DNA of 64,000 nt from Haloarcula salina (GCF_010119195.1 NZ_WRXL01000005.1:248001-312000), one strand, 5' to 3'; positions 3,697-62,499 are shown, counted from the first letter of the stretch. Program-made: numbers and translations. The notes: generated by a model from the sequence alone, not told the origin.

Positions 3697-6297
<2,601 letters not shown>

Positions 6298-7822: not shown

Positions 7823-8263
7823 ATGGTCCTCGAAATCGTTCGCATGGTCGGGTTCGGCGTCTGCGGGACGTTCACCGTTGCGCTGGGGCTGGTGCACTTC
7901 ACCATGCCGCGGCTGTTCGACTTCGACGGTGCGATCCCGATCGAGGGGGAGCCGCTACGCCCGCTCAGACTCCCACTCGTCACCTACCAGACGAAACGGT
8001 CGGACGTGCGCGGTATCGCACAGATCATGAACCACGCGGTGAGCTACGTGCTGGTGACGATCGGCGTCCTCGACCTCCTCGCGGGCCGGTGGCTCGCCGC
8101 GTGGTTCGCGCCCTACCTGCTCGTGTGGATCGCGGGGTGGTGGTTCCTCAGGGCGGCGACCCAGCGCCACATGGGCTCGCGCGTCGGAGATCGACTCGTC
8201 GCGGTCGGGTTCGCCGCCATCGGCATGTTCCACCTCGGCTTCGGGGCGCTCGCGTGGCCGTGA
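7823..8263 (+). CDS. Small integral membrane protein of unknown function
   Basis: A 146-residue protein with about four hydrophobic helices: residues 5-28, 68-88, 90-110 and 125-145. Between the first two is a polar stretch rich in Arg and Pro. I do not recognise the family. It stands 72 bases after nikR on the same strand and converges on the DUF2071 gene. A possible link to metal homeostasis rests only on that proximity. Confidence 0.6.
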   Translation: MVLEIVRMVGFGVCGTFTVALGLVHFTMPRLFDFDGAIPIEGEPLRPLRLPLVTYQTKRSDVRGIAQIMNHAVSYVLVTIGVLDLLAGRWLAAWFAPYLLVWIAGWWFLRAATQRHMGSRVGDRLVAVGFAAIGMFHLGFGALAWP

Positions 8264-8290
8264 GTTCGCGACCGGGGGCCGGCCAGCGCC

Positions 8291-8986
8291 TCAGTCCCCG
8301 GCGCGCTCGCTCCGCGACGCGACCACGTCGAGCCCCGGGCTGTAGTAGTACACCGGGTCGGCGTCGGGTCGCGCGAATCCGTGAGCCGCGAGCAGCGTGT
8401 CCGCCTCGATGTCGGCGGCGGCCGGGTACAGCGTCCAGGGGTCGTGGGACACGTCCGTGTACCGTATCGAGCCGTCCTGAGCCTCCGTGTAGAAGCGATA
8501 GCGCTCGACGAGGAATTCTCCGAACGGGTCGTCGGGGGCCGAGAACGGCTCGCCGCTTGGCCAGTACGTCCCCTCGTAGTGGACCGGGCGCGCGCCGGGA
8601 TGCCGGCGACGACTGCTGAACCTGACGCGGCCGTCGTCCAACTCCAGCGAGATGCGCGCGTAGTAGTACGGGAGGTGATGGAACAGGCGCGCGCCGACGA
8701 CGCTCGCGAGGCCCTGCGCGTCGAGGCTGAAGAAGTAGACGCTCGGGACGCCGTCGCGGGTGACGTACGTCCTGAGGTTGAGCTCCGGCAGACGAACGCC
8801 GAGGCGTTCGGGGAGGCCTTTCGGCCGGACGGCGACGTTGGTGAACGGCACGGTGGAGAGCCACGCGGACCCGTCGTACACGTCGGGTTCCAGCCCGTCC
8901 GGGAGATGGGCGTCCATCACTGCCGGGTCGACCGGCCAGTTCTCGAACAGCAGGTGCCGCCATCCCATCGAAAGCGGGAGGACCAT
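8291..8986 (-). CDS. DUF2071 (YqjF-like) protein
   Basis: A 231-residue soluble protein. The opening MGWRHLLFENWPVDPAVMDAH and the pattern PFTNVAVRPKGLP, LPELNLRTYV and YFFSLDAQG are the signature of DUF2071/YqjF proteins, a family related in fold to acetoacetate decarboxylase and lacking an assigned reaction. The length fits a complete protein. The neighbours (a membrane protein and a Yip1 protein) give no functional hint. Confidence 0.8.
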   Translation of the reverse strand: MVLPLSMGWRHLLFENWPVDPAVMDAHLPDGLEPDVYDGSAWLSTVPFTNVAVRPKGLPERLGVRLPELNLRTYVTRDGVPSVYFFSLDAQGLASVVGARLFHHLPYYYARISLELDDGRVRFSSRRRHPGARPVHYEGTYWPSGEPFSAPDDPFGEFLVERYRFYTEAQDGSIRYTDVSHDPWTLYPAAADIEADTLLAAHGFARPDADPVYYYSPGLDVVASRSERAGD

Positions 8987-9039
8987 GTTTTGACTCGGCG
9001 GCGAGCGCAGAAGTCAATTCCGGGTCCACAGAGCCACCG

Positions 9040-9771
9040 TCAGAGCAGGCCAATCAAGAAGAACACGCTCGCAGTGACCGCGGCGACCGCGGCCGCCTGC
9101 GCTCGTGACACGTCGCGGCCCCGTTCGAGTCCGAACGTCCAGACGACCGCGCCCCAGGCCGTGCTGGCGACGTTGAGCGCGGTGGCCACGGGAAGCCACG
9201 GTCGCAGGCTCCCGAGGACCGTCCGTTCGAGGACCGCCGGGGCGGTCTCGGGCGTGATCGTCACGGGATCCATCATGAACCAGAGGGCCACGAGGCCGAG
9301 GGGCATCGTCACCAGGATCGGGGCGAAGCCCCACGCCGTGACGGCGAAGGAGTTGCCGAACCCCCCACGGCCGCCACACACCGCCGTCCCGACGTGGAGG
9401 ACGACGGCGGTGCCGAGCAGGGCGATCGGCAGGCCGACGAGCATGGAGAGGTAGAACTGGCCGAGTGCGTCCCGGATGATCGGGTCGATGTCCCGCTCGA
9501 TCTCGGCGGGGGCGTCGCAGTCGAAGCTCACCTCGCTCATCTCGGTGAACATCGAGTTCTGGTCCGAGTCACAGAACGCCTCGGACGGGCGGTCCGGGTT
9601 GTCGATCATGACCGTGCCGTCGATTTTCTCGGTGAACACGACGCCGAGTCCGGCGACGAGCGCGACGGACGCGATCGTCACCAGCGCCGCGACGACGAGT
9701 CCGCGAGCCGCGTCTGGCTCGCGGCTCTTGAAGTATCTGTCCGGGCGGAGGAGGGGCGTTCGCGGGGACAT
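9040..9771 (-). CDS. Yip1-family membrane protein
   Basis: A 243-residue protein. The N-terminus RTPLLRPDRYFKSREPD leads into a first membrane helix (about 25-48), then an external acidic loop with two Cys residues (about 60-100), then four more hydrophobic helices. This arrangement is that of archaeal Yip1-domain proteins, whose role is not known. It is followed on the same strand by the DUF2071 gene after a 53-base gap. Confidence 0.7.
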   Translation of the reverse strand: MSPRTPLLRPDRYFKSREPDAARGLVVAALVTIASVALVAGLGVVFTEKIDGTVMIDNPDRPSEAFCDSDQNSMFTEMSEVSFDCDAPAEIERDIDPIIRDALGQFYLSMLVGLPIALLGTAVVLHVGTAVCGGRGGFGNSFAVTAWGFAPILVTMPLGLVALWFMMDPVTITPETAPAVLERTVLGSLRPWLPVATALNVASTAWGAVVWTFGLERGRDVSRAQAAAVAAVTASVFFLIGLL

Positions 9772-9860
9772 ACCTGTCAGACCGCACGGTGCGGATAAGT
9801 GCCTTACGCCGGTCGAATCGGCGACGGGGTCGGCGAGCGAAGGCCCGGTGGTAGGGGTCG

Positions 9861-10031
9861 TTATCCTCCCTCTACCGCTTCGTCACTCGGCGACAGCGGT
9901 TCGAAGGTCTCACCCCCGCACTGGCGGCACCGCCCCGCAGTGGTGCGGAAGCCCTCCGCGGTGGGCGTCGCGACGTAGACGGTCCCGCAGTTCCGGCACG
10001 CGACTGGACGGCGCTCGTTCCAGTTTCTCAC
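9861..10031 (-). CDS. Small zinc-ribbon protein
   Basis: An open frame of 56 codons starting at a GTG at 10031. It reads VRNWNERRPVACRNCGTVY, then about 13 residues, then GRCRQCGGETFEPL and an acidic tail, giving two CxxC knuckles about 20 residues apart. This is the organisation of the tiny zinc-ribbon proteins common in haloarchaea. No ATG is available in frame, and the start is the weakest part of the call. It lies between the Yip1 gene and the DUF7344 gene, all on the minus strand. Confidence 0.55.
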   Translation of the reverse strand: MRNWNERRPVACRNCGTVYVATPTAEGFRTTAGRCRQCGGETFEPLSPSDEAVEGG

Positions 10032-10118
10032 GCTCCGTCCCTCCGCAGTACCGTCGGTGTGCGGGGAGTCGGTGCGCCGACCCGCGCACGAGTCGGTGGC
10101 AGTGCTCTGTCCATCTCG

Positions 10119-10475
10119 TTATAACGGTGACAGATCGGTCTCATCGAGATCTATTTCGGCCGCCTGCTCCAGGTACGGGCGGATCTGTTCGGCGTTTGGG
10201 CCCAGTTCGATCAGTTCGTCGGACCGGTCGTACGCGACCACGTCGGCCTCCGCGAGCTTCGGGACGTGGATGTGGTACAGCGACGTGTAGATCGCGAGTC
10301 GCTCGTCGAGGCGCTCGTCCGCGGGCGCGTCGTATTCCCACTCGACGATCTGCCCGGCCACGTCGGACAGGCGGATCGGATTGGCGTACATGTAGAGGCA
10401 GTAGAGGGTGTACCGCCGTCGCCCTGCGGCGAGCAGGTCGTGGATCCTGTCGGCGGAGAGGTCGCTAGCGGTCAC
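10119..10475 (-). CDS. DUF7344-type winged-helix protein
   Basis: A 118-residue predicted DNA-binding protein. LSADRIHDLLAAGRRRYTLYCLYMY is the first helical part of the DUF7344 domain, and YTSLYHIHVPKLAEADVVAYD is the recognition helix and wing region. Haloarchaeal genomes carry many such putative regulators. I chose the GTG at 10475 because the sequence between the upstream ATG at 10535 and this point is Arg- and Gly-rich and unlike the family. It is divergent from the large Bat-type regulator. Confidence 0.75.
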   Translation of the reverse strand: MTASDLSADRIHDLLAAGRRRYTLYCLYMYANPIRLSDVAGQIVEWEYDAPADERLDERLAIYTSLYHIHVPKLAEADVVAYDRSDELIELGPNAEQIRPYLEQAAEIDLDETDLSPL

Positions 10476-10791
10476 GCGGCGTCCCTCCGTCGCGTTCCGC
10501 CGCGTCCCTCCAGCGACCGACCCCACCGGTGGCACAGCTACGGCGCGTCTCTGTCGTTGTCATCGGTGCGTCCGTCTGTGAGATGAGTGATAGCTACGGG
10601 AGACGGCAAAATAGTCACTCCCTCTAGACACGTAGAGAGGAGACGCCCAGTTCGGCGAGCCGAAGCCGACGGCGGTAGGGGGGCGAATACCGGGGCTCTC
10701 TGCGGAAACAGGCCGGGACACGGGGAGATCTCTCACGAGCGTTCGGCCGTGATGCTTTTCAGTAGCCACGAAGTTTTGGTAGTTATCCAAT
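10476..10791. other. Divergent intergenic region with a short inverted repeat
   Basis: This 316-base region separates the DUF7344 gene from the large Bat-type regulator. I find no convincing gene. CTCTA and TAGAG flank six bases at about 10622-10637, inside a run of CT- and GA-rich sequence next to AAAATAG, which could be an operator. No clear TATA box was found for either gene. Confidence 0.4.
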
Positions 10792-13700
10792 ATGTTGGGA
10801 GAGCGGGCCCGGGCGCTCTACGTCGGCCCCGACGAAGCCACGGCGGAGACGTACAGCGCCTCGCTGGAGCGGGCGGGATACGCGGTCGATACGGCGGTCT
10901 CGCCGGCCTCCTGCGTCGACAGCATCGCGCCGGACACGGAGTGCGTCGTCTGTTCGCTCGCCCTCGGTGACACGAGCGGCCTCGCGGTGCTCGGAGCGGT
11001 CCGCGAGTCGTATCCGGACCTCCCCTTCGTCCTCGTCGCGCGCGACGGGAGCGAGGCCGTCGCCAGTGACGCCATCGCGGCGGGCGTGACCGACTACCTC
11101 CCCGCGGACGGGGGCGGAGGCGTCCCGACCGATCTGATCGAACGGGTGGACGCCGCCGTTGAGGGTGGGCGAGAGCGGACGGCCAGCGGGACCGAGGGAC
11201 GAGTGCTACGAGACCTCGGTGAAACCGTGTCGTCCAGCGACCGCTCGCTCACCGAGGAAGTCGAGTCGCTCCTCGAAGTCGGACGAGAGGCGCTCGGCAT
11301 GGACTACGCGACGCTGTCGCGCGTCGAGGGCGAGGAGTTCGTGCTCGAAGCGGTCGATGGGGCCCCGGGAGTGGACATGACCACGGGCGACCGGTTCCCG
11401 ATCGACGCGACGAACTGCGAGCGCGTGGTCGAAGCCGACGAGACGGTCGTTCGCGCTGGCACCGAGACCGATGCGATCGGGGCGGACGACCCGCCGGTCC
11501 GCATCGACGGTGGTGTCTCGCGATACATCGGAACGCCGGTCACCGACGGGACCGACGTCTGCGGGACGCTCTGCTTTTACGCCGAGGAGTCGGAGGCGGT
11601 CTCGGTCTCGGAGCGGGACGTGGCGGTCGTCGAACTGCTCGGTCGCCTGGTCAGCGACTGCATCCAGCGGGATCGCTACGCCGACCGGCTCTCGTCGTTC
11701 GAGGCCGCGTTCCCCGACGTCGGGCTGGTCCTCGACGCGGACGGACGGTTCCGTGACTGCATCGCCGGAGCGACCGCGTCCGCGTTGCTCTACGACGACC
11801 CCGAGCACATGGTCGGCCAGACCGTTCACGAGGTCTTGCCCCAGGGGACGGCGGACGCCATTCAGGCGGCGGTCGACGAGGCGCTTGATACCGGACGGCT
11901 CCAGTCCGTCGAGTACGAACTGGACGTGCAAGCGGGGACGAGGTACTTCGAAGGGCGGGCCGCCGCGGTCGCCGGCGGCGAGTACGGCCCGGAGCGAGTC
12001 GTGTTCGTCGCACGTGACATCACCGAGCGGACGGAACGCGAGCGACGACTGGAGCGGGCCGAGACGAGCTTCCGGAACGCCCAAGACGGGATCTTCCTCG
12101 TCGACGTCGCGGACGGCGAGTTCGTCATCGAATGCGTCAATCCGGCCTACGAAGCGCTGACAGGCCTCGCGGCGGACGACGTCCGTGGTCGAACGCCGCG
12201 TGAAGTCCTCGGTGACGAGATCGGCGGCGAGGTCGTGGAGCGCTACCGCGAGTGCGTCGAGCACGGCGAGCCGATCGAGTACGTCGAGCAGGTCCCGCTG
12301 CCGTCCGAGGAGACGCACTGGAAAACGAAGGTCGCACCCATCGGCGAAGCCGGGGAGGTGAGAAAGCTCGTCGGCGCGACGCGCGACATCACCGAGCGAA
12401 CGGAACGCGAGGAGGAGCTGGCGTATCGCCGGGCGCTGCTCGAGGCCCAGGCGGAGACCGGTATCGACGGCCTGCTGGTGGTCGACTCGGGGCGGAACGT
12501 TCGCTACCACAACGACCGATTCCTCGATATCTGGAACATCCCCCGGTCCGTCGCTGACGCCCAGTCGGACCGGAAGCTGCTCGACGCCGTTCGCGACACC
12601 GTCGCCGACCCGGAGGCGTTCTTCGAGAAGGTCGAACACCTCTACGACAACCCCGAGGCGGTGAGCCGCGACACGATTCGTCTGGAGGACGGGCGCTACC
12701 TCGACAGGTACTCGGCCCCCGTCGTCGACGGCGAGACGCAGTACGGGCGCCTGTGGGTGTTCCGTGACGTCACCGACGAGAAGGAACGCGAGGTCGCGCT
12801 CAAACGGCAGCGCGACGAGCTGGCCGCGTTGCACCGCGTCGACACGCTCATCCGCGGGATCATGAAGCGCCTCCAGCACGCCTCGACTCGGGATGAGATG
12901 GAGACGGCGGTCTGTGCGCACCTCACCGAGACGGACCTGTATCAGACGGCCTGGATCGGCACGACGGAGAAACAGTCGGACGGTGACCCGACAGTCACAC
13001 CGCGGACGGCCTCCGGCGTCGACGACGCCTATCTGGAGGGGATTCCGCAGACGAACAATCCGGCGGCGAGGGCGGCTCGTACGGGGTCCGTAGAGGTCAT
13101 TCCCGACGTGGAGACAGACGACGGCTTCCCCGACTCGCGACGGGAGATCGCGCTCGACCACGGCCACCACGCGCTCGCGACGGTGCCGCTCACGACCGGC
13201 GACACGACCTACGGCGTCCTCGTCGTCTACGCCCCGCGAGAGCACGTGATCGACGACGAGGAGCGGGCGGTACTGGCCGACCTCGGTCGAATCGTCGCCT
13301 ACGCCATCCAGCGGGTGCAGAGTCAGCGCTCGCTCACCGCGGAGTCCGTCTTCGAGCTTCGGATGCGGGTCGAGGACACCGACCTCGCGTACGGTCGGGT
13401 GACCGCCGAACTGAACTGTGAACTCCGCTTCGAGCGGCAGGTCCCGACCAGCGGCGGCTCGGCAATCCAGTACTTCACGGTCCGGGGGGCAGAGCCGGAC
13501 CGCGTCGCAGACCGACTCGAAGCGGCTGCGTTCGTCGAGGCCTGTACCGTGGCCCGGCGCGGCGACGACGGCACGGGTCTCCTCGAAGTCGTCGTCGACG
13601 GCGGCGGCGCGAGTCCCTTCGACGTGGTGACCAACCACGGCGCGTCCCTCACCGAAGGGCGCGTGCGAGACGGCGACATCGCGCTCACGGCGGAGGCCGC

Positions 13701-14028
13701 ACCGGGAATCGACGTTCGCGGACTGGTCGGCGCGATACAGGCGGTCGCACCGGGAGCGACGCTCGCCAGCAAGCGCCTCCGCGACCGGCGGACCACGACG
13801 GTCCCGGAGGTCAAGGGGTGGATCAGCGACGAACTGACACAGAAACAGGAGGCGGCCCTGAGCGCGGCCTACACGCGCGGGTACTTCGAGTGGCCGCGCG
13901 AGAGCACCGCGGAGGAAGTCGCGGCTCCGATGGACGTGTCCTCGGCGACGCTGCACTACCACCTCCGGAACGGTCTCCAGACGCTCCTGAGCATGTACTT
14001 CGAACCGGACTGCCGACACGCGCTCTGA
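10792..14028 (+). CDS. Large Bat-type PAS/GAF sensor-transcription regulator
   Basis: A 1078-residue cytoplasmic regulator. Residues 5-120 form a receiver-like domain, but the acceptor Asp is missing: the strand reads CVVCSLALGDTSGL. A GAF domain (about 140-290) follows, then three PAS domains (about 300-425, 425-545 and 545-670; each of the first two ends in a VxDITER-type linker). A second GAF domain spans about 680-830, then the Bat-associated domain to about 1000. The C-terminal HTH_10 is LTQKQEAALSAAYTRGYFEW plus a helix-turn-helix. There is no kinase domain, so signals sensed by PAS and GAF probably act directly on DNA binding. The ligand is unknown. Confidence 0.9.
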   Translation: MLGERARALYVGPDEATAETYSASLERAGYAVDTAVSPASCVDSIAPDTECVVCSLALGDTSGLAVLGAVRESYPDLPFVLVARDGSEAVASDAIAAGVTDYLPADGGGGVPTDLIERVDAAVEGGRERTASGTEGRVLRDLGETVSSSDRSLTEEVESLLEVGREALGMDYATLSRVEGEEFVLEAVDGAPGVDMTTGDRFPIDATNCERVVEADETVVRAGTETDAIGADDPPVRIDGGVSRYIGTPVTDGTDVCGTLCFYAEESEAVSVSERDVAVVELLGRLVSDCIQRDRYADRLSSFEAAFPDVGLVLDADGRFRDCIAGATASALLYDDPEHMVGQTVHEVLPQGTADAIQAAVDEALDTGRLQSVEYELDVQAGTRYFEGRAAAVAGGEYGPERVVFVARDITERTERERRLERAETSFRNAQDGIFLVDVADGEFVIECVNPAYEALTGLAADDVRGRTPREVLGDEIGGEVVERYRECVEHGEPIEYVEQVPLPSEETHWKTKVAPIGEAGEVRKLVGATRDITERTEREEELAYRRALLEAQAETGIDGLLVVDSGRNVRYHNDRFLDIWNIPRSVADAQSDRKLLDAVRDTVADPEAFFEKVEHLYDNPEAVSRDTIRLEDGRYLDRYSAPVVDGETQYGRLWVFRDVTDEKEREVALKRQRDELAALHRVDTLIRGIMKRLQHASTRDEMETAVCAHLTETDLYQTAWIGTTEKQSDGDPTVTPRTASGVDDAYLEGIPQTNNPAARAARTGSVEVIPDVETDDGFPDSRREIALDHGHHALATVPLTTGDTTYGVLVVYAPREHVIDDEERAVLADLGRIVAYAIQRVQSQRSLTAESVFELRMRVEDTDLAYGRVTAELNCELRFERQVPTSGGSAIQYFTVRGAEPDRVADRLEAAAFVEACTVARRGDDGTGLLEVVVDGGGASPFDVVTNHGASLTEGRVRDGDIALTAEAAPGIDVRGLVGAIQAVAPGATLASKRLRDRRTTTVPEVKGWISDELTQKQEAALSAAYTRGYFEWPRESTAEEVAAPMDVSSATLHYHLRNGLQTLLSMYFEPDCRHAL

Positions 14029-14204
14029 GGGCGGGCGGCCCCGGGAAGTCGGCCGGCGGAGGATCGAAGCGAAGCGGCGGGCACCGTCGAACCGCGGATT
14101 CTCCGACGAGAGGAACTGTCGCTTCGCGTCTGCTCGCGACCGCTGGCGCACGCACGGTCCGACGGAGCGGAACTGTTCTGGTCCGGCAGGGCGAACGAAC
14201 GCCT

Positions 14205-51835: not shown

Positions 51836-52648
51836 TTAGCGGCCATTCCACTTCGGTTCTCTCTCCTCGAAGAATGCGTCGATGCCCTCGTTTTTGTCCT
51901 CCGTCGCGAACAGCTGTGCGAACAGTTCCGCCTCGTAGTCGATGCCGCTCTCGAGGTCCATTCGCGACGCCGCACGGACGCTCTCTTTCGCGTACTGGAG
52001 TGCGACGGGGCTCTTTGCGGCGATGGACTCGGTGATGGTCGCAACCGCCTCGTCGAGGTCGTCCGGGTCGCTCACCTCGTCGACGAGTCCGATGTCGCGG
52101 GCCTCCTCGGCACCGATGAGGTCGCCGGTGAGGATCAGCTTCATCGCCTGGCCCTCGCCGACGAGTCGCGGGAGCCGCTGGGTCCCGCCGCCGCCCGGGA
52201 TGATGCCGAGATTGATCTCCGGCTGCCCGAGTTTGCCCCCGCGCTGGGCCACTCGGATGTCACACGCCATCGCCAGTTCGAGGCCGCCGCCGAGCGCGTG
52301 TCCGTTGATACGGGCGACGACCGGCGTCCCGAGGTCCGCCACGGTCTCGTACACGCGCGGTCGCTCGCTCGCTCGCCGCTGTTCGAGCATGTCCCGCTCG
52401 CGGAGTTCGCTCACGTCGGCGCCGGCGACGAAGGCGTTACACTCCGCCGATCCCGTGAGGACGGCCACGCGGGCGTCTGACTCCTCGATCGCGTGCAGGA
52501 CCGTCGTCAGCTCATCCCGGACGGCGGCGTTCAAGGCGTTCCGCGCGTCCGGTCGGTCGATGGCGACCGTGGCGATGCCGTCGCCGTCGCGCTCGACGCG
52601 GACCGTCTCGTACTCGTCGTCCAGGGCCGCCGCCGTCACCTCGGTCAT
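51836..52648 (-). CDS. Enoyl-CoA hydratase/isomerase family protein
   Basis: A 270-residue crotonase-fold enzyme. The oxyanion-hole segments are FVAGADVSELRE (about 73-84) and NGHALGGGLELAMACDI (about 114-130), followed by the catalytic-loop region LGQPEINLGIIPGGGGTQRL, which includes a Glu suited to hydration. The predicted role is hydration of trans-2-enoyl-CoA. Its start overlaps the stop of the 3-hydroxyacyl-CoA dehydrogenase gene by four bases, so two consecutive steps of beta-oxidation are co-expressed. Confidence 0.93.
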   Translation of the reverse strand: MTEVTAAALDDEYETVRVERDGDGIATVAIDRPDARNALNAAVRDELTTVLHAIEESDARVAVLTGSAECNAFVAGADVSELRERDMLEQRRASERPRVYETVADLGTPVVARINGHALGGGLELAMACDIRVAQRGGKLGQPEINLGIIPGGGGTQRLPRLVGEGQAMKLILTGDLIGAEEARDIGLVDEVSDPDDLDEAVATITESIAAKSPVALQYAKESVRAASRMDLESGIDYEAELFAQLFATEDKNEGIDAFFEEREPKWNGR

Positions 52649-53529
52649 CGGTCACCCCACTCGCCGCTCGTCGCGACGGCTTCGCCGTCCTCCCAGACGT
52701 AGAACCCCTCGCCGGACTTCTGCCCGGTCTTGCCGGCGCGGACTTTCCGCTTCAGCAACTGCGGTGGCTTGAACCGCTCGCCGAGTTCCTCGCGCAGGTA
52801 CTCGAGGATGTCGAGGCGCACGTCCAGTCCCACCATGTCCGTGAGTTCGAGCGGGCCGACGGGGTGATTGTAGCCCAGTTCCATCGCCGCGTCGATGTCC
52901 TCCGGCGAGGCGACGCCCTCCTCGACCATCCGGATCGCCTCGACGCCGAGGGCGACGCCGAGCCGCGAGGAGGCGAACCCCGGCGTGTCGCGGACGACGA
53001 CCGGCGTCTTGTCGATGCTGGCGACGTAGTCCTCCGCGAACTCGCGGGTCCGGTCGCTCGTCCGCTCCGCGACGACTGTCTCGACGAGCGACATGATGTG
53101 GACCGGATTGAAGAAGTGGAGCCCGACGAACCGCTCGGGATGTTCGAGCGCGCTCGCCAGTTCGGTCACCGAGAGCGACGAGGTGTTCGTCGCGAGGACG
53201 ACGCCCTCGTCGACGGCCGCCTCGGCCTCCGAGAGGACGCTTTTCTTGAGATCGACCTTCTCCGGGACCGCTTCGACGAGCAGTTCCGCTCCCTCGACCG
53301 CGGCGTTGAGGTCTGTCTCGCCGGTGATCCGGTCGAGCGTCTCGCGTCTCTCGGTCTCGGTGACCTTTCCGCGTTCGATGCCGCCGTCCAGATTGGACCG
53401 GATGGAGTCGATCCCGTTCTCGATCTGTTCGTCGTCGACGTCACGAAGCGTCACGTCGTGTCCGGCCATCGCGCTCACCTGTGTGATACCATGGCCCATG
53501 GTTCCAGCGCCTAGTACGGTTACCCGCAT
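52645..53529 (-). CDS. 3-hydroxyacyl-CoA dehydrogenase
   Basis: A 294-residue NAD-dependent enzyme. The Rossmann motif VLGAGTMGHGITQ lies at residues 5-17, with ATNTSSLSVTELA and the catalytic-His region LHFFNPVHIMSLVE further on, then DTPGFASSRLG and the second-domain end NHPVGPLELTDMVGLD. It oxidises 3-hydroxyacyl-CoA to 3-ketoacyl-CoA in the cytoplasm. The ATG at 53529 puts the nucleotide motif at the expected place. A TATA-like region with ACTTATG lies about 25-30 bases upstream on the minus strand. Confidence 0.94.
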   Translation of the reverse strand: MRVTVLGAGTMGHGITQVSAMAGHDVTLRDVDDEQIENGIDSIRSNLDGGIERGKVTETERRETLDRITGETDLNAAVEGAELLVEAVPEKVDLKKSVLSEAEAAVDEGVVLATNTSSLSVTELASALEHPERFVGLHFFNPVHIMSLVETVVAERTSDRTREFAEDYVASIDKTPVVVRDTPGFASSRLGVALGVEAIRMVEEGVASPEDIDAAMELGYNHPVGPLELTDMVGLDVRLDILEYLREELGERFKPPQLLKRKVRAGKTGQKSGEGFYVWEDGEAVATSGEWGDR

Positions 53530-53659
53530 ATGTATCGACGGTACAGGCGACGACATAAGTGTTAATACTCCGGGGGGTCCGTCGCTCGCCGCAGCGAACC
53601 CCGGACCTGCCGGCACTATCGACGGAAGAGCAATGTGGCTGGCCCGTTAGAGTCGACTT

Positions 53660-54166
53660 GTGCAGGAACCAATCTACGGGAAGTCACCTGCGGTAGCGGA
53701 ATCCGCGTTCGTCTCGAAGCAGTCTGCGCTCATCGGCGACGTGACGGTCGGAGAACGGAGCAGCGTCTGGCCGTTCACCTGCCTCCGGGGCGACGACGAC
53801 GAAATGCCGACGTCCGTCGGTGACGAGTGTAACGTCCAGGAGTTCTCGATGCTCCACGGGGCGACCCTCGAAGACCGGGTGTCGATCGGCCACAGCGTGA
53901 CCGTCGACTACGCGACCGTCGGCGAACACTCGCTCGTCGGCATCAACAGCGCGGTGCTGCGCGGCGCGACGGTCGGTTCGAACTGCCTCGTGGCGGCGGG
54001 CAGCCTCGTGAGACAGGGACAGACGGTTCCCGACGGTCATCTGGCCTACGGCGTTCCCGCCGAGACCCGCCCGCTGAGCGATACACAGCGCGAGGAGATC
54101 GCCATGGTCCACGAACACTACGTCGAACTCGGCCGCGACTACAGGGAGACGGACCGCTTCGAGTGA
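53660..54166 (+). CDS. Gamma-carbonic-anhydrase-like protein with altered metal site
   Basis: A 168-residue left-handed beta-helix protein (hexapeptide repeats) of the gamma-carbonic anhydrase or YrdA type, starting with GTG. Trimers of the family bind a metal at subunit interfaces through three His. His66 (MLHGAT) and His78 (IGHSVTVDY) are present, but the third His, normally five residues after the second, is Asp83. Carbonic anhydrase activity is therefore doubtful; a different metal, substrate or a structural role is possible. A long C-terminal helix follows (RETDRFE end). Confidence 0.85.
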   Translation: MQEPIYGKSPAVAESAFVSKQSALIGDVTVGERSSVWPFTCLRGDDDEMPTSVGDECNVQEFSMLHGATLEDRVSIGHSVTVDYATVGEHSLVGINSAVLRGATVGSNCLVAAGSLVRQGQTVPDGHLAYGVPAETRPLSDTQREEIAMVHEHYVELGRDYRETDRFE

Positions 54167-54479: not shown

Positions 54480-55376
54480 ATGACCGATAGCTCGGCTGCT
54501 ACCACCGGAGACGGTCGCGTCATCGACGCGCACGTCCACATGAATCCGTTCTGGCGGCTGGACGACGACGCGCTGGCGCTCCTGCGCGAACACGGCCACG
54601 GCTTCGAGAAGAAGGTCGACCTGGCGAGACACCCGGAGAAGTTCGTCTCGTACCTCGACGAGCAGGGCATCGAGCGCGCGGCGATCATCAACTACGTGAC
54701 GCCGATTCTGGGCTACACGCACGACGTGAACGAGTGGGCGGCCTCGTTCCGCGACGCCGCGCCCGACCGCGTCCTCGCTTTCGGCGGCTTCGACCCGAAC
54801 GAGGCGGACGACCCGGACGCGGTCCTCGACCGCGCGATCGACGACCTCGACCTCGACGGTATCAAGATCCACCCGCCGCATCAGAACGTGCAGGCGAACG
54901 ACTACCTCGACGAGCCCGGCTATCGAGGGCTCGACGGCCTCCGCAGCCTCTACGAGCGCTGTGCCGCGGCCGACATTCCGGTGATGGTCCACACGGGAAC
55001 GAGCATCTTCCCCGGTGCGCGCTCTCGCCTCGCCGACCCGATGCCGCTCGACGACGTGGCGGTCGACTTCCCCGACCTGGACATCGTCATGGCTCACGGC
55101 GGCCGGCCGATGTACACCGACGAGGCGTGGTTTCTGCTCCGCCGTCACGACAACGTCTACTTCGACGTGTCGTCCATCCCGCCGTCGAACCTCCCGGAGC
55201 ACTTCCCGCGACTGGAAGCGGTCGCGGACCAGACGCTGTTCGGAAGCGACTGGCCGGGACCGATGGTCCCCGACATCGGTGAGAACGTGGCCGAGGTCCG
55301 ATCGCTCGACCTCCCGGACGAGGCCATCGACCGAATCCTCTACGGGACCGCAGCGGAGCTGTTCGGCCTCGAATGA
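54480..55376 (+). CDS. Amidohydrolase_2 family metal-dependent hydrolase or decarboxylase
   Basis: A 298-residue TIM-barrel enzyme. Metal-ligand candidates are His18 and His20 in DAHVHMN, His171 in MVHTGTS, His206 in MAHGGRP and Asp257 in FGSDWPG. This is the layout of the amidohydrolase_2 family, which includes ACMSD, gamma-resorcylate decarboxylase and hydrolases of cyclic or lactone compounds. No substrate can be deduced. The start overlaps nothing, and the stop overlaps the MBL gene by four bases, so the two enzymes probably act on the same pathway. Confidence 0.88.
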   Translation: MTDSSAATTGDGRVIDAHVHMNPFWRLDDDALALLREHGHGFEKKVDLARHPEKFVSYLDEQGIERAAIINYVTPILGYTHDVNEWAASFRDAAPDRVLAFGGFDPNEADDPDAVLDRAIDDLDLDGIKIHPPHQNVQANDYLDEPGYRGLDGLRSLYERCAAADIPVMVHTGTSIFPGARSRLADPMPLDDVAVDFPDLDIVMAHGGRPMYTDEAWFLLRRHDNVYFDVSSIPPSNLPEHFPRLEAVADQTLFGSDWPGPMVPDIGENVAEVRSLDLPDEAIDRILYGTAAELFGLE

Positions 55377-56296
55377 ACGCGTTTCGCATCGCACACCCAC
55401 ACGGCAGCCCGGAAGGCGAGAACAGCACGTACGTCTTTCAGGACCGCGGCGTCGTCGTCGATCCCGGTCCGCCGGGCGAGGACGCGTGGGGCACGCTCCG
55501 GAGCGGGCTGGAAGCCAACGGTCTCGATCTCGGCGACGTCGAGGACGTCGTTCTCACGCACTGGCACGCGGACCACGCCGGCAACGCGCCGAGATTGGCC
55601 GCAGCCGCCGACGCCGACCTGCACATGCACGAGCGGGACGCCCCGCTGATCCGAGACTACGGCGCGGAGCGACACCGCCGCGTCGAGCGCGACGCCGAGA
55701 TGCTCGACCGGTGGGGCGCGCCCGAGTCCGTGGTCAGCGAGGTGCGCGAGAGCGACACCCCGTCGCCGATACCGGATACCGTGCCCGTGATCGGGCACGC
55801 CGACGGGGACCGCGTCGCCGGCCTCGAACTCCTGCACACGCCCGGCCACACGTGCGGCCATCTCGCGGTCCGGGACGAACGGACGCTGTACGTCGGTGAC
55901 GCGGTCCTGCCGATGTACACGCCGAACGTCGGGGGAAGCGATACCCGAACCGCCGCGGAGAACCCGCTCGACCAGTATCTCCGGATGCTCGACCGACTCA
56001 GCGGCCTGGACGTAGACCGCGAAGCGCGCCCGGGACACGGCTCGACCGTCTCGCTCGACGACCGTATCGAGGTCATCCGTCGCCACCACCGAGAGCGCGT
56101 CGACGCCGCAGTCGAGGCGTTACCGGCGACCGGGACGGCGACCCCGTGGTCGGTCGCACGGACGCTGTTCGGCGAGATGTCCGGAATCCACGCGAAGATG
56201 GGCGCGGGCGAGGCCGCCGCACACCTCGCTCACGCCGAACACTCGGGGCGCGTGACTCGGGTCGCAGACCGGCCCATCACCTACCGACGGTCGTGA
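55373..56296 (+). CDS. Metallo-beta-lactamase-fold hydrolase
   Basis: A 307-residue protein. LTHWHADHAGN gives the binuclear zinc motif (His63, His65, Asp67, His68). LHTPGHTCGHLA and LYVGDAVLP supply the later His and Asp ligands. Residues 240-307 form a C-terminal helical region with ALPATGTATPWSVARTLFGE, as in glyoxalase II-like and LACTB2-like proteins. Thioester or ester hydrolysis is likely. Translational coupling (ATGA) to the amidohydrolase suggests consecutive steps. Confidence 0.88.
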   Translation: MNAFRIAHPHGSPEGENSTYVFQDRGVVVDPGPPGEDAWGTLRSGLEANGLDLGDVEDVVLTHWHADHAGNAPRLAAAADADLHMHERDAPLIRDYGAERHRRVERDAEMLDRWGAPESVVSEVRESDTPSPIPDTVPVIGHADGDRVAGLELLHTPGHTCGHLAVRDERTLYVGDAVLPMYTPNVGGSDTRTAAENPLDQYLRMLDRLSGLDVDREARPGHGSTVSLDDRIEVIRRHHRERVDAAVEALPATGTATPWSVARTLFGEMSGIHAKMGAGEAAAHLAHAEHSGRVTRVADRPITYRRS

Positions 56297-56443
56297 GGTG
56301 ACGACCGTCCGTGCGGCGCAGACCGGTTCTCGGCGGGCGTAAACGCCGGTGGCGGCGATCATAAACGATTGAACATTAATTATATATACTACCGTTGTTT
56401 ACACCGTTTTAGACCCAGAGACTCGGTTCCATGGCCTTTCACT
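56297..56443. promoter_or_regulatory. Promoter region of the UbiD operon
   Basis: 147 bases between the MBL gene and the UbiD-operon gene. ATTATATATACTACC at about 56377-56391 is an AT-rich TATA-like block, roughly 60 bases before the ATG at 56444, implying a leader of about 30-35 bases. No other signal is distinguished. Confidence 0.45.
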
Positions 56444-56938
56444 ATGACACAATACAGTACTGCCGAAGAAAACCTGCCGGAAGACACCGACGGTGAGATC
56501 CGTCTGCAAGTGACAGATACGAACACCAAGGAAATCTTCGTGACGCGGGCACGCGTGTCCCGGTCCGCGACCGACCTCGACGACCCGGAGCCCCTGACCG
56601 TGGTCCGCGGGCCACACGAGAACATCAAGGAAGACTGGCACATCGAGATCCTGGAATCGAACCCGGATCTCAACGACATCGACGACGAGATACTCCGCGA
56701 CTGTATCGAGTACAGCCGCAGAGAATCGAACGTCATCAACGCCCGGTCGGAGGACGCTCGCGCGCTGTTGCAGTATCTCGTCGCGGTCGGGGAGTTCGAG
56801 TCGGTTTCGGACGCCGTCCGGACCATCATCAACGCGTACATGCAGGACACCTACCCCGAACTCCTGGACGCCTATCTGGACGCGAAGGCCGAGCAGCTCC
56901 GCGACGAGATGTCGACCTCGTTCGGTGAGAACCGATGA
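56444..56938 (+). CDS. 18-kDa protein encoded with two UbiD proteins
   Basis: A 164-residue acidic protein. The N-terminal part has beta-type sequence (EIRLQVTDTNTKEIFVTRAR); the C-terminal part, from about residue 105, resembles a ribbon-helix-helix segment (ALLQYLVAVGEFESVSDAVR) followed by a helix. I cannot decide between a small DNA-binding regulator and an enzyme subunit. The stop overlaps the first UbiD start by four bases, and the UbiD pair is likewise coupled, so it is probably made in proportion to them. Confidence 0.7.
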   Translation: MTQYSTAEENLPEDTDGEIRLQVTDTNTKEIFVTRARVSRSATDLDDPEPLTVVRGPHENIKEDWHIEILESNPDLNDIDDEILRDCIEYSRRESNVINARSEDARALLQYLVAVGEFESVSDAVRTIINAYMQDTYPELLDAYLDAKAEQLRDEMSTSFGENR

Positions 56939-58470
56939 CCGCCGGGGCGACGGAAGCCGTCGACAGTTTCCGTGACTACCTCGACCGACTCGAGGAACGA
57001 GACGCGTGCAATCGGATCGACGAGCGCATCTCGTGGAACCTCGAAGCCGGTGCAGTCACGATGCGTGCCAACGAACGGGACGCCCAGATTCCGGTGTTCG
57101 AGGACGTGAGCGACGGCACGGACGCTCGGCTCGTCGGGGACCCGTACCGCGGACCGCGCCGCCAGCCCTGGGAGCGCATCGCGATGGCGCTCGGGGTGAC
57201 CGACGCCCGGACGACCGACGACTACTACGAGGAGATCATCGACCGCGTTCGGTCGCCCATCGAGCCGACGGTCGTCGACGGCGACGACGCGCCGTGTAAA
57301 GAGGTCGTCAGAACGGGCGGCGACGTCGACCTCCTCTCGTTCCCGTGGCCGTTCCTCCACGTCGGCGACGGCGGCCGCTATTCGAATCTCCACACGCTCA
57401 TCGCCGACGACCGGGACACGGAGTGGACCGACTGGTCTTCACACCGGGCGATGCTCCACGACAACACGCGCGCGAGCGTCCTCCTGCTCGCGGGCGAGCA
57501 GACCCCGAACATCTACTACTACAAGTACGAGCGCCACGACGAACCGATGCCGGTCGCCATCACGATCGGCGCGGAACCGGCCGTCGAGTGCGTTTCGATA
57601 ATGTGGATCCCGACGGGACGGAACGAGGCGGAGTTCGCGGGCGGCCTCAAGCGCGCACCGGTCGAGCTCGTCGAGTGCGAGACGAACGATCTCCTCGTGC
57701 CGGCGACCGCGGAGATCGTCCTGGAGGGACGCATCCTGCCGAACAGTCGCCTCGACGAGGGCCCGTACGGCGATTACTTCGGCTACATGCACGGGCCGCG
57801 TCGGTCGATGCCGGTGCTGGAGATCGACGCGGTGAGCCACCGCGAGCGGCCGTTCATCCCCTTCCGCGTCGAGTGGTCCGAGGTCGGGTACGCCCACAAC
57901 ACCACCTCGTCCATGGAGGTCGCGTGCGTCGGCCCCGACGCGACGCTCGGGCTCCGCGCGGCCGGGTTCGACGTGGAGAAGCTCGCCCCCTGGCCCTTCA
58001 CGCCGCGGACCGTCTACGTCGTCTCGACGGAGACGACGCGGCCCGATTCCCTCCACGAACTCGCGAACTTCATCTTCACGACGTGGGGGATGCTCCACGT
58101 GGACTTCTTCGTCTTCGTCGACGCGGACGTCGACCCGTTCGACCAGCGCGCCGTGCTCGAAGCGGTGTCGCTGTACGCCGACCCCGACACGGACTTCCAC
58201 CAGTTCGGGGCGGAGTCGATGCCGAAAGTCCCGCTCAACATCTACCAGACGCCCGAGGAGAAGGGGGACGTGCAGATGGGGACCTCGAAGGCGAAGACCG
58301 CGAAGACGTACATCGACGCGACCCGGCCCGAGGGAGAACCGCTCCGGAGCGGGTCGCGGGTCGGCGACAGCGAGCGTCGCGAACGCGCACGGGAGCTTCT
58401 CAGAGACGCCGGACTGTCCGACGCGACGCTCGACACGGCCCCGGTCGACCCGAGTGGTGAGCGCCGATGA
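56935..58470 (+). CDS. UbiD-family decarboxylase, catalytic form
   Basis: A 511-residue protein of the UbiD family, which uses prenylated FMN for (de)carboxylation of aromatic or unsaturated acids. The active-site motif DEGPYGDYFGYMHG (Asp274, Glu275, Gly276, Asp280) matches the EGPxGE/D signature. VLEGRILPNSR just before, and the conserved stretch SSHRAMLHDNTRAS near 168-181, fit the cofactor domain. The reaction direction and substrate are unknown. It lies between the 18-kDa protein and the second UbiD, coupled to both by ATGA overlaps. Confidence 0.9.
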   Translation: MTAGATEAVDSFRDYLDRLEERDACNRIDERISWNLEAGAVTMRANERDAQIPVFEDVSDGTDARLVGDPYRGPRRQPWERIAMALGVTDARTTDDYYEEIIDRVRSPIEPTVVDGDDAPCKEVVRTGGDVDLLSFPWPFLHVGDGGRYSNLHTLIADDRDTEWTDWSSHRAMLHDNTRASVLLLAGEQTPNIYYYKYERHDEPMPVAITIGAEPAVECVSIMWIPTGRNEAEFAGGLKRAPVELVECETNDLLVPATAEIVLEGRILPNSRLDEGPYGDYFGYMHGPRRSMPVLEIDAVSHRERPFIPFRVEWSEVGYAHNTTSSMEVACVGPDATLGLRAAGFDVEKLAPWPFTPRTVYVVSTETTRPDSLHELANFIFTTWGMLHVDFFVFVDADVDPFDQRAVLEAVSLYADPDTDFHQFGAESMPKVPLNIYQTPEEKGDVQMGTSKAKTAKTYIDATRPEGEPLRSGSRVGDSERRERARELLRDAGLSDATLDTAPVDPSGERR

Positions 58471-59843
58471 CCGACGCGCGCTCGTTTCGTGACAGTGTGG
58501 CGGCGCTCGACGACGCGGACGACCTCCTGACGGTCGAGGAGCGCGTCAGGAACGAGGACGTCGCTGCAGTGGCGGCCGAGGCGCTGCGCTGTAACGGGCC
58601 GGCGGTGCGCTTTCGCGACACCGACGGTCTCCTGACGCCCGTGTCCGGGACGCTCGCCGGCCCCGAACAGGCGACACAGTATCGGGAGAAGCCGTGGAAA
58701 CGACTTGCGCTCGCTCGCGGGCTGGACGCCGATTCGACGTACGGACGCGTGGTCGACCACGTCGCCGGTCCCCTCGCAGCGACCACCGACCCGACGACAG
58801 ACGAACTGCACGCAGACGAGACGGCGGCGAACTGCTACGACCTGGGTCTGCCCCCGCTGGAACCCGGGGCGCCACCGGCGTTCACGCTCGGACTGCTCGC
58901 GGTCGACGACGGCGAGGCGACGCAGTGGCTCCCGGCCCGCGGGACCGTCCGTGGTCCGAATCGGCTCCGGGCCGTCGTTCCGGCGGACGGTCTCGCTCCC
59001 TCGGCGGAGACGGCGTCGCTCTGTCTCGGCGTCCCGGCGGCCGCGACGACGAACACGCTACTGCACTGGCTCGACCGGACCCAGACCGGGAGCATGCGCC
59101 CGAGCACTCGATCGGCGGCCGTCCCGGTCGCGACGCGCGACGGGCGGATCGTTCCGGCGACCTCGGAGGTGGTGGTGACCGGGACCGTCTCGGAAGCGGG
59201 ATCCGAGGAGGAGGCACCCGAGTCGGAGTCGATGTGGGAGCGGGCGATGGAGACGGCGGTCGTCGACCTCGTCGTTGACACCGTCGCTCACCGCGAGGAC
59301 CCGCGAGTCCCGGTCGTGCCCCTCGGCGCGCCGTTCGCTGACGACATCCACCTCGTCGGCATCGCCGAAGCGGCGCGGCTGAGCTACCGCGTGAACAACT
59401 ACTGGGGCATCGAACCCGCCGAATGGATTCGGCTCCCGGCCGAGACGTGTCTGGGCATGTGCGTCGTCGCGTCGGAGATCCTGTACGCGGGGTTCGAGTG
59501 GCAGTTGGCGAACACGCTGTTCTCGTTCTCGAACCTCTTCGATAAGGTGCTCATCCTGGACGAAAACACGTCGGCGGCCGACCTCTCGCGGCCGCTCGAC
59601 GACATCTGGGTGAAAGCGCATCCCTCACAGGACTGGGTGTTCAGCGAACCGAGCGCGCCCGCGGCGACGGCCCCGCGGTACCGAACCGACGGGACGCCCG
59701 GGTCGCGGCTCTTCATCAACGCGTCGTGGGACCCGCGCTGGGACGAGGAGTACATCGCTCCCCGCGTCACGTACGAGACCTCCTATCCAGAAGCCGTCCG
59801 GCAAACCGTCGCGGAGATGTGGGACAGCTTCGGCTTCGAGTGA
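58467..59843 (+). CDS. UbiD-like protein lacking the catalytic motif
   Basis: A 458-residue paralogue of the upstream UbiD protein. Matching parts include YREKPWKRLALARGLDADST near the start and the second half (FADDIHLVGIAEAARLSYRV, then LSRPLDDIWVKAHPS). Where UbiD enzymes have EGPxGE/D this protein reads TGTVSEAGSEEEAPESESMW, so the catalytic Glu/Asp pair is absent. A noncatalytic partner subunit, as in the two-UbiD-chain phenylphosphate carboxylases, is the most economical explanation. It converges on the ketoacyl synthase-like gene 13 bases on. Confidence 0.8.
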   Translation: MTDARSFRDSVAALDDADDLLTVEERVRNEDVAAVAAEALRCNGPAVRFRDTDGLLTPVSGTLAGPEQATQYREKPWKRLALARGLDADSTYGRVVDHVAGPLAATTDPTTDELHADETAANCYDLGLPPLEPGAPPAFTLGLLAVDDGEATQWLPARGTVRGPNRLRAVVPADGLAPSAETASLCLGVPAAATTNTLLHWLDRTQTGSMRPSTRSAAVPVATRDGRIVPATSEVVVTGTVSEAGSEEEAPESESMWERAMETAVVDLVVDTVAHREDPRVPVVPLGAPFADDIHLVGIAEAARLSYRVNNYWGIEPAEWIRLPAETCLGMCVVASEILYAGFEWQLANTLFSFSNLFDKVLILDENTSAADLSRPLDDIWVKAHPSQDWVFSEPSAPAATAPRYRTDGTPGSRLFINASWDPRWDEEYIAPRVTYETSYPEAVRQTVAEMWDSFGFE

Positions 59844-59856: not shown

Positions 59857-61275
59857 TCATTCGGGGGCGAACTTCAGCCCGTACCGCGTGACGCCCTCGA
59901 CGCTGTAGATTCTGCGGAACCGCGCTTCGACGCGGTCACCGACGGACACCTCGTCCAGGTCGCAGTCTGTCAGCTGGACGGGGAACCGCGCCGAGTCGCC
60001 CGCCGCCGACGCTTCGACGATGGCGACACCGAAGGGACCGTCACGGCGCTGCTGGGGGACGAACTCCGGCGGCGCGCCGCCCTGTCCGATGACGGTCGCG
60101 GCGACGATCTCGCCGGAGCGCGGGAGCGAGACGGACTCGAACGTCACCCGTTCGTGACAGTCCGGACAGGCCCCCTCGGGCGGGAACGCGACCGCGCCGC
60201 AGTCGGGACACCGGCCGGCTTCCAGGCGGTACCGCTGCGGGATCGACCGCTGCCACGAGGGGAGGCTCACGTGTGCGCCGCCGCCGGCGACTTCGGTTTC
60301 ACCGATCGTACCGCGCTCGCGTAGCGCCTGCGCGTACGGGACGTCGACGCCCCCGTCGAGCGCCGCGGAGAGGCCTGTCCGGATGGGGTCTCGAACCTCG
60401 AAGGCCAGCGCCGTCGCGGACGCCCCGCTGCCGAAGCATCCGGCGACGACGTGTGACGAGGGGTCACTCGCGTCGAGCGCAGCCAGCAGGCCGAGCGCCG
60501 ACGTCGCCGCGCCGGCGTCGCCGACCTCGTCGACCAGCGTCCCGCGCGTGACGGCCTCGGCGTCGTAGGGCAACGCTTTGGCGATGCGATGGGGGATGTC
60601 GGCCGTGGGCTGGTGGAGCGCCACAGCGGCGACGGCGTCCGCGGGCACATCGAGCGCGTCGACGGCCCCCGCGACGAGGTCCCTGATCGTCTCTCGCTCG
60701 TAGGTCGTGATATCCAGGCCGTCGACGGTCTCGGACCCGGACTCGCGGAACCGGATTCCCGGTGCGTCACGGGAGCGGGTCGCCGCGTCGGTCAGGACGA
60801 CGGCACCGTCAGCCGCGAACAGGAACGCGGCGGCTCCCGCGCCGACCCGCTGGCCCGCCTCGCCGGGGTCGCCGGCGGGCGCGTCGGCCACGACAGCGAG
60901 GGCCGGACCGTCCGCACGGGCAGCCGAGAGGACCGCGTCCGCCCCGGCCACGGTGCTCTGGGTCGCCGTCGCGAGCGTGCTGTCCGATTCGAGTCCGAGG
61001 GCCGCGAGGGCGCGGGGACCGAACTCCTCCTCTTCGAGCGGCGGCGTCGTGGTCCCGATGGCGAGGTGATCGACCGCGCTCGCTTCGAAGCGGCTCGACG
61101 CGATGGCGTCGCGTCCCGCCGCGACCGCCATGGTGAGCGCGTCTTCGTCGGCCGCCGGCACGGCCGCTCGCGCGACCGGTGCGGACGTGCCCCACGCGGC
61201 TTCGATTTCGTCGCCGTCGAGGCGCAGACGCGGGACGAACGCACCGGTGGCGACGATACCGCGGTCCGAACTCAT
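59857..61275 (-). CDS. HMG-CoA synthase/KAS III-like protein fused to DUF35 OB-fold
   Basis: A 472-residue fusion. Residues 1-335 follow the archaeal HMG-CoA synthase or KAS III fold (His221 in ALHQPTADIPHRIA; SSHVVAGCFGSGASATALAF). Residues 345-472 are a DUF35 domain: a zinc ribbon CPDCGAVAFPPEGACPDC (Cys356, 359, 370 and 373) plus an OB fold. The position of the catalytic Cys is occupied by ATATQSTVAG (about 102-111) without any Cys, so condensation activity is unlikely. Archaeal DUF35 proteins bridge HMG-CoA synthase and thiolase, and here the partner thiolase is the next gene, coupled by ATGA overlap. Confidence 0.82.
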   Translation of the reverse strand: MSSDRGIVATGAFVPRLRLDGDEIEAAWGTSAPVARAAVPAADEDALTMAVAAGRDAIASSRFEASAVDHLAIGTTTPPLEEEEFGPRALAALGLESDSTLATATQSTVAGADAVLSAARADGPALAVVADAPAGDPGEAGQRVGAGAAAFLFAADGAVVLTDAATRSRDAPGIRFRESGSETVDGLDITTYERETIRDLVAGAVDALDVPADAVAAVALHQPTADIPHRIAKALPYDAEAVTRGTLVDEVGDAGAATSALGLLAALDASDPSSHVVAGCFGSGASATALAFEVRDPIRTGLSAALDGGVDVPYAQALRERGTIGETEVAGGGAHVSLPSWQRSIPQRYRLEAGRCPDCGAVAFPPEGACPDCHERVTFESVSLPRSGEIVAATVIGQGGAPPEFVPQQRRDGPFGVAIVEASAAGDSARFPVQLTDCDLDEVSVGDRVEARFRRIYSVEGVTRYGLKFAPE

Positions 61276-62447
61276 CGCGCACCTCCGTCGGCCCGCTCGA
61301 AGACGTGGACCGTCACGCCGCCGCCCGAGCCGCCGACGTTGTGCGTGAGCCCGACGTTCGCCCCGTCGACCTGCACGTGGGCGTCGCCCCGGAGCTGCGA
61401 GAACGCCTCGACGGCCTGTCCGGTCCCCGTCGCGCCGATGGGATGTCCCTTCGACTTCAGGCCGCCGGACGTGTTCACGGGGAGGTCACCGTCCGGGTCG
61501 GTGACGCCCTCGCGGAGGAGGCGGGGCGCCTCGCCGCGGTCGCAGAGTCCGAGGTCCTCGTAGGCGGCGAGTTCGGCGATGGCGAAGCAGTCGTGGACCT
61601 CCGCGAAGTCGAGGTCGTCCGGCTCGATGCCGGCCTCGTCGTACGCGCGCTGGGCGGCCGTCTCCGACGCGGGAATGCCCGTCAGGGACTCGCGCTGGAA
61701 CAGGCCCACCCGACCGCTCGCCGCGCCGGCACCCGCGACGCGGACCGGCGCGTCCGAGAGTTCGCGTGCGACCTCCTCGCTCGCGACGAGCGCGGCGCTC
61801 GCGCCGTCCGTCGTCGGACAGCAGTGATAGAGGTTCAGCGGCGCGGCCACGTCTGGCGCGTTCATCGCGTCCTCCAGCGAGCACTCGAAACCGAGCTGGG
61901 CGTGGGGGTTCTGCGCCCCGTTGGCGTGGTTCTTGACCGCGACCCGCGAGATATCCTCCTTCGTCGCCCCGTACTCGCGCATGTAGGCGCTCGCCATCTG
62001 CGCGTAGACGCCGGCGAACGTCGTCCCGGAGAGGCGTTCCCACTCCGTCTCGCCGCTGACGCCGAGCCACCACTTCGTGTGGTCGCCGCTCATGTCGGTC
62101 ATCACCTCGTAGCCGCCGGCGAGGGCGACGTCCGCCATGCCGGAGCGAACCGCCATCACGGCCTGTCGGAGCGCGTATCCGGAGGCCGCACACGCGTTCT
62201 CGACGCGCGTCGTCGGTATCCCGTGAAGGCCGAGGTGTTCTGTTACGGCCGGACCGCTCAGTCCCAGTTGTCGCCCGCCGACGCCGAGCGTCCCGAGGAA
62301 CGCCTCGTCGATGCTGTCGGTGTCGAAGTCGCCGTCGACGCTCGCGACCGCTTCGTCGAACGCGTCGTCGAACAGCGACCGGTACGACTCATCGGGGAAC
62401 GATCCGAAGTCTGACTGTCCAGCGCCCATGATGTACGCATCGGTCAT
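61272..62447 (-). CDS. Thiolase family protein (acetyl-CoA acetyltransferase type)
   Basis: A 391-residue thiolase of the archaeal or SCP-x subgroup. The active-site Cys86 is in ENACAASGYALRQ, the second motif is EVHDCFAIAELAAYED, and the C-terminal SGGLKSKGHPIGATGTGQ carries the catalytic His. Thiolytic cleavage or Claisen condensation of acyl-CoA is expected. In archaea this enzyme is often in a complex with a DUF35 protein; the following gene is fused to DUF35. The ATG at 62447 gives the family N-terminus; the frame upstream overlaps another gene. Confidence 0.92.
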   Translation of the reverse strand: MTDAYIMGAGQSDFGSFPDESYRSLFDDAFDEAVASVDGDFDTDSIDEAFLGTLGVGGRQLGLSGPAVTEHLGLHGIPTTRVENACAASGYALRQAVMAVRSGMADVALAGGYEVMTDMSGDHTKWWLGVSGETEWERLSGTTFAGVYAQMASAYMREYGATKEDISRVAVKNHANGAQNPHAQLGFECSLEDAMNAPDVAAPLNLYHCCPTTDGASAALVASEEVARELSDAPVRVAGAGAASGRVGLFQRESLTGIPASETAAQRAYDEAGIEPDDLDFAEVHDCFAIAELAAYEDLGLCDRGEAPRLLREGVTDPDGDLPVNTSGGLKSKGHPIGATGTGQAVEAFSQLRGDAHVQVDGANVGLTHNVGGSGGGVTVHVFERADGGAR

Positions 62448-62499
62448 ACACAGTAGATGATGATGAGCGACTATAAGGTGCGGGGGTACGGCTGCCGAC

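Follow-up and report, generated by a model that had tools for sequence, protein, structure and literature searches.

A conserved haloarchaeal operon with two UbiD-type genes and a small-protein gene, in genomes that nearly all lack UbiX

UbiX is the flavin prenyltransferase that makes prFMN. UbiDs, which are prized for reversible carboxylation, are described as sharing an obligate requirement for UbiX (PMC8379154). Phenylphosphate carboxylase consists of alpha, beta, gamma and delta subunits of 54, 53, 10 and 18 kDa, respectively, the delta subunit being of a phosphatase family (PMC6114531). Small partners of UbiD chains are VdcD, an allosteric activator (PMC8379154), and LpdD, a prFMNH2-binding chaperone (PMC10865409). 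A search of the open-licence literature yielded no description of the three-gene system presented here, and nothing relevant on UbiDs in haloarchaea or on UbiX-independent UbiDs.

The window is a stretch of 64,000 nucleotides of Haloarcula salina DNA, with positions counted from its first letter. It contains three consecutive genes, P0001, P0002 and P0003, in the following surroundings:

51836-52648, minus strand: enoyl-CoA hydratase
52645-53547, minus strand: 3-hydroxyacyl-CoA dehydrogenase
53660-54166, plus strand: gamma carbonic anhydrase / PaaY-like hexapeptide protein
54480-55376, plus strand: amidohydrolase 2 family protein, a neighbour in the closest relatives only
55373-56296, plus strand: metallo-beta-lactamase-fold hydrolase
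56381-56415, plus strand: candidate promoter/operator (TATA-like element and 17-bp imperfect palindrome), kept in two close relatives
56444-56938, plus strand: P0001, small acidic protein of 164 aa and 18.8 kDa, exact ORF
56935-58470, plus strand: P0002, UbiD-family chain of 511 aa, Fdc1/HudA/TtnD-like, exact ORF
58467-59843, plus strand: P0003, degenerate UbiD-fold chain of 458 aa, exact ORF
59857-61275, minus strand: HMG-CoA-synthase-like/OB-zinc-ribbon protein
61272-62450, minus strand: thiolase
Beyond the window, 4134-11199 of locus L204 (G000:C10:312001-331900): aryl-CoA epoxidase catabolic cluster, from PaaA to a CoA transferase pair, with an ABC transporter after it

Reading of the ORFs gave exactly the three genes, coordinates and two ATGA overlaps (P0001/P0002 and P0002/P0003) described in an earlier note on this DNA. 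There, the overlaps had been taken to mean that the genes are made together. The overlaps are real but provide weak evidence by themselves, because such overlaps are common in the window, comparable ones being found between other neighbouring pairs at 55373/55376, 52645/52648 and 61272/61275. The case is carried by conservation instead.

The main sample comprised 292 near-complete Halobacteria genomes (at least 95% complete). When the sets obtained by profile searches were compared, the matches to P0001 and P0003 fell in the same 67 genomes. Among 60 relatives, both were found in the same 19 genomes, P0003 giving weak matches only elsewhere. Outside the Halobacteria, the phylum sample gave no full-length match to P0001. 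The order small protein, UbiD, UbiD-like was kept at 37/37 loci examined, from many genera, with a tight intergenic spacing of -29 to +42 nt, mostly -4, -1, 0 or +3; it was fixed in all but one of the genomes read from the set of 67. The conserved triplet that the earlier note had proposed to look for across Halobacteria is therefore present. In phylogenetic trees, the P0002 and P0003 sequences each formed a monophyletic group, with matching subclades, and the three proteins show correlations of 0.91-0.93 between their pairwise distances. The common order and spacing at the 37 loci and the co-occurrence of both outer genes in the same 67 genomes are strong evidence that the three genes form one conserved operon unit, and the conservation in 67 genomes rules out a chance overlap or a spurious ORF. 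Public annotation labels both P0002 and P0003 merely as 'UbiD family decarboxylase'.

Two genomes (G255 and G321) contain two triplets each. One UbiD pair of G255 has no adjacent P0001, a P0001 match being located elsewhere on the contig (C1:470486-470971). Some triplet copies are carried on large plasmids.

P0002 matches the Pfam UbiD family (PF01977) with an E-value of 6e-62 and 209 bits, for a cut-off of 23.3. By profile, it aligns to HudA at E 1e-62 over about 400 residues, and its closest relatives are the prFMN enzymes HudA, Fdc1 and TtnD. The EGPYGD motif pointed out previously is indeed kept, as DEGPYGD at 274-280. No variation is seen at R171, E231, E275 or D280 across the 52 P0002 sequences, which share about 60-85% identity. 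The Glu-Arg-Glu/Asp catalytic network of the UbiD family (R171-E275-D280) is thus intact.

The metal site is altered. In A. niger Fdc1, the Mn ligands of the prFMN site are Asn168, His191 and Glu233. Only the Glu of this set is kept in P0002 (52/52 sequences). According to an alignment to Fdc1, TtnD and HudA, which is somewhat ambiguous near a gap, the position of His191 is occupied by T190, and by T, V, I or A in 52/52 sequences. The position of Asn168 is occupied by D166, and by D, T, R, S or H, never Asn, across the 52 sequences, with Asn present in 24/26 UbiX-linked haloarchaeal UbiDs. HudA apparently has a Ser at this position in the alignment made here, yet it binds Mn (PMC7976604), so that the Asn substitution alone proves little and the change of the His is more telling. 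An Arg at position 229 was considered as a metal stand-in and dropped, as it is found in only 44/52 sequences.

UbiX (TIGR00421) is found in 22/292 and PF01977 in 89/292 of the Halobacteria genomes. Of the control genomes, that of Haloferax volcanii gives no match to either model. The 89 genomes are split without remainder: by a search that detects sequence homologues only, and which an unrelated prenyltransferase would escape, UbiX turns up in none of the 67 triplet genomes and in all 22 non-triplet genomes. The probability of such a split is 2.5e-21 under naive independence, a figure without independent-sample value, as the 67 genomes are related. In the 22 genomes, UbiX is near a UbiD gene. 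Throughout the sample, it accompanies non-triplet UbiDs only, and the UbiD is often of a 441-442-aa form encoded some 2.6 kb from it. The broader flavoprotein model PF02441 gives a single match, in a CoaBC-sized frame, in 36 of the 37 triplet genomes searched; the match in the H. salina genome was identified as CoaBC. The exception, Halobellus rufus, has both the triplet and UbiX, with a non-triplet UbiD near UbiX. That UbiX was missed through incomplete assembly is ruled out, as the genomes are at least 95% complete, UbiX is absent from all 67, and a CoaBC-sized PF02441 match is found in every genome searched. UbiX, whose availability in the genome is expected for a UbiD-family enzyme, is lacking in all 67 triplet genomes of this sample. 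This absence had been missed in the earlier note, where P0002 was called an active UbiD; the description is apt for the Glu-Arg-Asp network, but too simple for a chain with one metal ligand replaced in a genome without UbiX.

As nearly all triplet hosts lack UbiX, which makes the cofactor of every studied UbiD, P0002 probably works in an unfamiliar way and not through the usual UbiX-made cofactor. Considered together, the absence of UbiX and the loss of the metal-ligand His indicate that P0002 probably functions without UbiX-made prFMN in the usual Mn site. Its cofactor may come from an unrecognised enzyme or be another flavin, or there may be none. Alternatively, P0002 could be an ordinary prFMN-dependent decarboxylase served by a divergent or unrelated flavin prenyltransferase encoded elsewhere, P0003 and P0001 only helping maturation in the manner of LpdD. 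The intact network and the kinship with HudA, Fdc1 and TtnD agree with this view, as does the existence of UbiD maturation chaperones that have no sequence similarity to one another (PMC10865409, PMC8379154). It is nevertheless considered unlikely, though worth keeping in mind, since the search that found no UbiX homologue in the 67 triplet genomes did find one in every other UbiD-bearing haloarchaeon sampled, and since the metal-ligand His is replaced in all P0002 sequences.

P0003 matches Pfam UbiD_C above the cut-off (4e-8, 33.6 bits), and UbiD_N and UbiD below it. The structure predicted for P0003, with a pLDDT of 76.6 and a weak stretch at 381-434, matches those of UbiD decarboxylases, the best Foldseek E-value being 3.8e-23 to HudA. 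In agreement with the earlier reading, a Glu-x4-Glu/Asp pair is missing where the motif would lie. The Glu-Gly-Pro motif gives way to a variable acidic stretch followed by an invariant Trp-Glu pair (W257-E258), and the position of the catalytic Arg is occupied, as judged by eye, by Arg, His or Ala, so that P0003 does not have the Glu-Arg-Glu/Asp network of the family. Invariant columns amount to 6% in the N-terminal domain, 7% in the middle and 34% in the C-terminal domain, as expected for a chain kept for its interface. P0003 is thus a chain of UbiD fold that has lost the catalytic network, constraint having shifted to its C-terminal oligomerisation domain. A duplication of P0002 was considered as the origin of P0003 but set aside: the tree shows P0002 and P0003 each as one group, with long branches that meet.

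The best reading of these data would be a P0002-P0003 heteromer, in which P0003 is a derived, non-catalytic scaffold chain, its conserved C-terminal domain being the most likely site of pairing with P0002. The multi-subunit complex with a noncatalytic scaffold that had been proposed earlier is consistent with the operon and with a UbiD-fold chain devoid of the network; we infer the heteromer itself from these features. It could also be that P0002 is no longer a decarboxylase, and that both UbiD chains take part in ligand binding or in the regulation of an acyl-CoA pathway. Such a role would fit the lack of UbiX, the altered metal site and a partner with a lost active site. It is judged improbable, as the catalytic triad and E231 are invariant in all 52 sequences at their level of identity, which would be unexpected without catalysis.

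P0001 consists of an N-terminal beta domain (about residues 1-75) with an invariant GPHE motif, followed by helices. The C-terminal half comprises ribbon-helix-helix-like helices (100-136) and a long helix. In the structural model (pLDDT 81, pTM 0.47), helices are found at 100-114 and 121-136. No Pfam family matches P0001 above the cut-off, and no convincing structural relative of the model was found (best Foldseek E-value of 0.29; no VIA-align Z of at least 5), nor any significant match to the Pba3/4-like fold of the LpdD chaperone. The beta domain is novel, without recognised relative. The presence of a single Cys precludes a zinc ribbon.

P0001 would be a dedicated accessory protein, and the two roles considered, a subunit or assembly factor of the enzyme or a regulator of the operon, are about equally likely. 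The earlier note had offered a ribbon-helix-helix regulator as an alternative, which finds some support in the C-terminal half only. In its full form, this alternative makes P0001 a ribbon-helix-helix repressor that acts on the operon and stands outside the enzyme, the complex being P0002 and P0003 alone; we place it slightly below an even chance. Weak matches of P0001 to ribbon-helix-helix proteins are confined to residues 102-150: its profile hits ParD antitoxins at E 0.57 and, over residues 103-150, ribbon-helix-helix-type proteins of 58-74 aa from other archaea. Moreover, P0001 opens the operon, and upstream of it are a TATA element and, at 56391-56407, an imperfect palindrome of 17 bp (ACCGTTGTTTACACCGT), both kept in two close relatives. 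However, the better conserved half of P0001 is the beta domain (23% versus 11% invariant columns), and the ribbon strand, examined by eye, departs from the usual alternating pattern. No operator shared across the clades was seen upstream of the operon, and the overlap or abutment of the P0001 gene with the UbiD gene nearly everywhere argues against a role as repressor only. In loci L051-L061, a leader lies some 75 nt ahead of the start of P0001; in it, CATATATG and TTGCTAAGAACATCAGCAA make up a short inverted repeat. This leader is kept within one genus, the sequence farther upstream being not, and may be an operator or an RNA element.

The operon sits in acyl-CoA and aryl-CoA catabolic clusters. 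One group of genomes has, after the triplet and on the same strand, genes for an acyl-CoA ligase, an acyl-CoA dehydrogenase, a biotin carboxylase, a carboxyltransferase and a MaoC dehydratase (12397-19341 of L055 and its counterparts within the genus; MaoC was called by reading and from annotated relatives). This arrangement suggests a carboxylating acid pathway. In L055, the last part of the ligase frame, around 14000-14091, has an ambiguous base; its reading, CLLYTS, resembles sequencing-adapter read-through in the assembly. In another set, the triplet is near the PaaA-PaaD phenylacetyl-CoA-epoxidase genes. The H. salina genome encodes, beyond the window, an aldehyde dehydrogenase, an acyl-CoA dehydrogenase, PaaA/B/C/D and a 2Fe-2S protein (ferredoxin), and further on a benzoate-CoA-ligase-type ligase (384.5 bits for a cut-off of 375.25), a CoA transferase pair and a branched-chain-type ABC transporter; PaaB and the transporter were called by reading and from annotated relatives. 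The metallo-beta-lactamase-fold hydrolase adjoins the triplet, before or after it, in 16/37 loci. Given this catabolic context, an aromatic or unsaturated acid, as such or as its CoA ester, is the most likely substrate.

Altogether, the operon would encode a haloarchaeal UbiD-family (de)carboxylase system acting within acyl-CoA catabolism, with P0002 as the catalytic chain, P0003 as its non-catalytic partner, P0001 as an accessory protein, and no usual UbiX-made prFMN in the Mn site. This whole picture is the explanation we favour, with somewhat better than even confidence. The chances are evenly balanced that the triplet contains a UbiD-fold enzyme with its triad kept, working without UbiX-made prFMN, with its cofactor site rebuilt and a pseudo-UbiD as obligatory partner, through either a cofactor switch or an unrelated prenylated-flavin route. 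The rule of obligate UbiX becomes directly testable with a widespread clade that has kept the catalytic residues in hosts devoid of UbiX. The triplet could bring to light a new cofactor or prenyltransferase, or a form of catalysis aided by a pseudo-UbiD partner, and also how aerobic halophiles run an aromatic or branched-acid pathway.

Phenylphosphate carboxylase (PpcABCD), to which the locus had been likened at the outset, also has two UbiD-type chains and small protein(s) encoded in one operon. Its 18-kDa chain is not the gamma subunit, as had been stated, but delta, gamma being of 10 kDa (PMC6114531). The presence of two UbiD-type chains, an 18-kDa protein and aromatic catabolism nearby would suit an enzyme of this kind. 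However, P0002 scores 168.7 bits with the alpha model and 98.2 bits with the beta model, for cut-offs of 564.6 and 469; P0003 scores 28.2 and 17.0 bits, and P0001 matches neither the gamma nor the delta model. The delta subunit has no match in the genome, in a search whose controls did match relatives; a genome search for the 10-kDa gamma gave no match, but no control matched either. In addition, the neighbourhood is that of an oxygen-dependent epoxidase pathway. Orthology is rejected on all conclusive subunit models, and a phenylphosphate-carboxylase-like enzyme is considered very improbable.

The VdcBCD and LpdBCD hydroxyarylic acid decarboxylases also have a small partner gene beside the UbiD chain, but the triplet operon has no UbiX (VdcB) gene, and P0001, with its one Cys and no zinc ribbon, is roughly double VdcD in size. 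The VdcC model gave 178 bits for a cut-off of 650, and the combination of VdcC with a zinc-ribbon VdcD was not found. The Fdc1/HudA (PA0254)/TtnD clade shares its Arg-Glu-Glu/Asp network with P0002 and its fold with P0003. These enzymes are homo-oligomers that need UbiX-made prFMN with Mn and K, whereas the triplet has a second, degenerate chain, altered metal ligands and no UbiX. The naphthalene and benzene carboxylases likewise have several UbiD-like subunits per cluster (PMC12016498); they are anaerobic and believed to use prFMN, whereas the triplet occurs in Halobacteria, in an oxygen-dependent aryl-CoA context.
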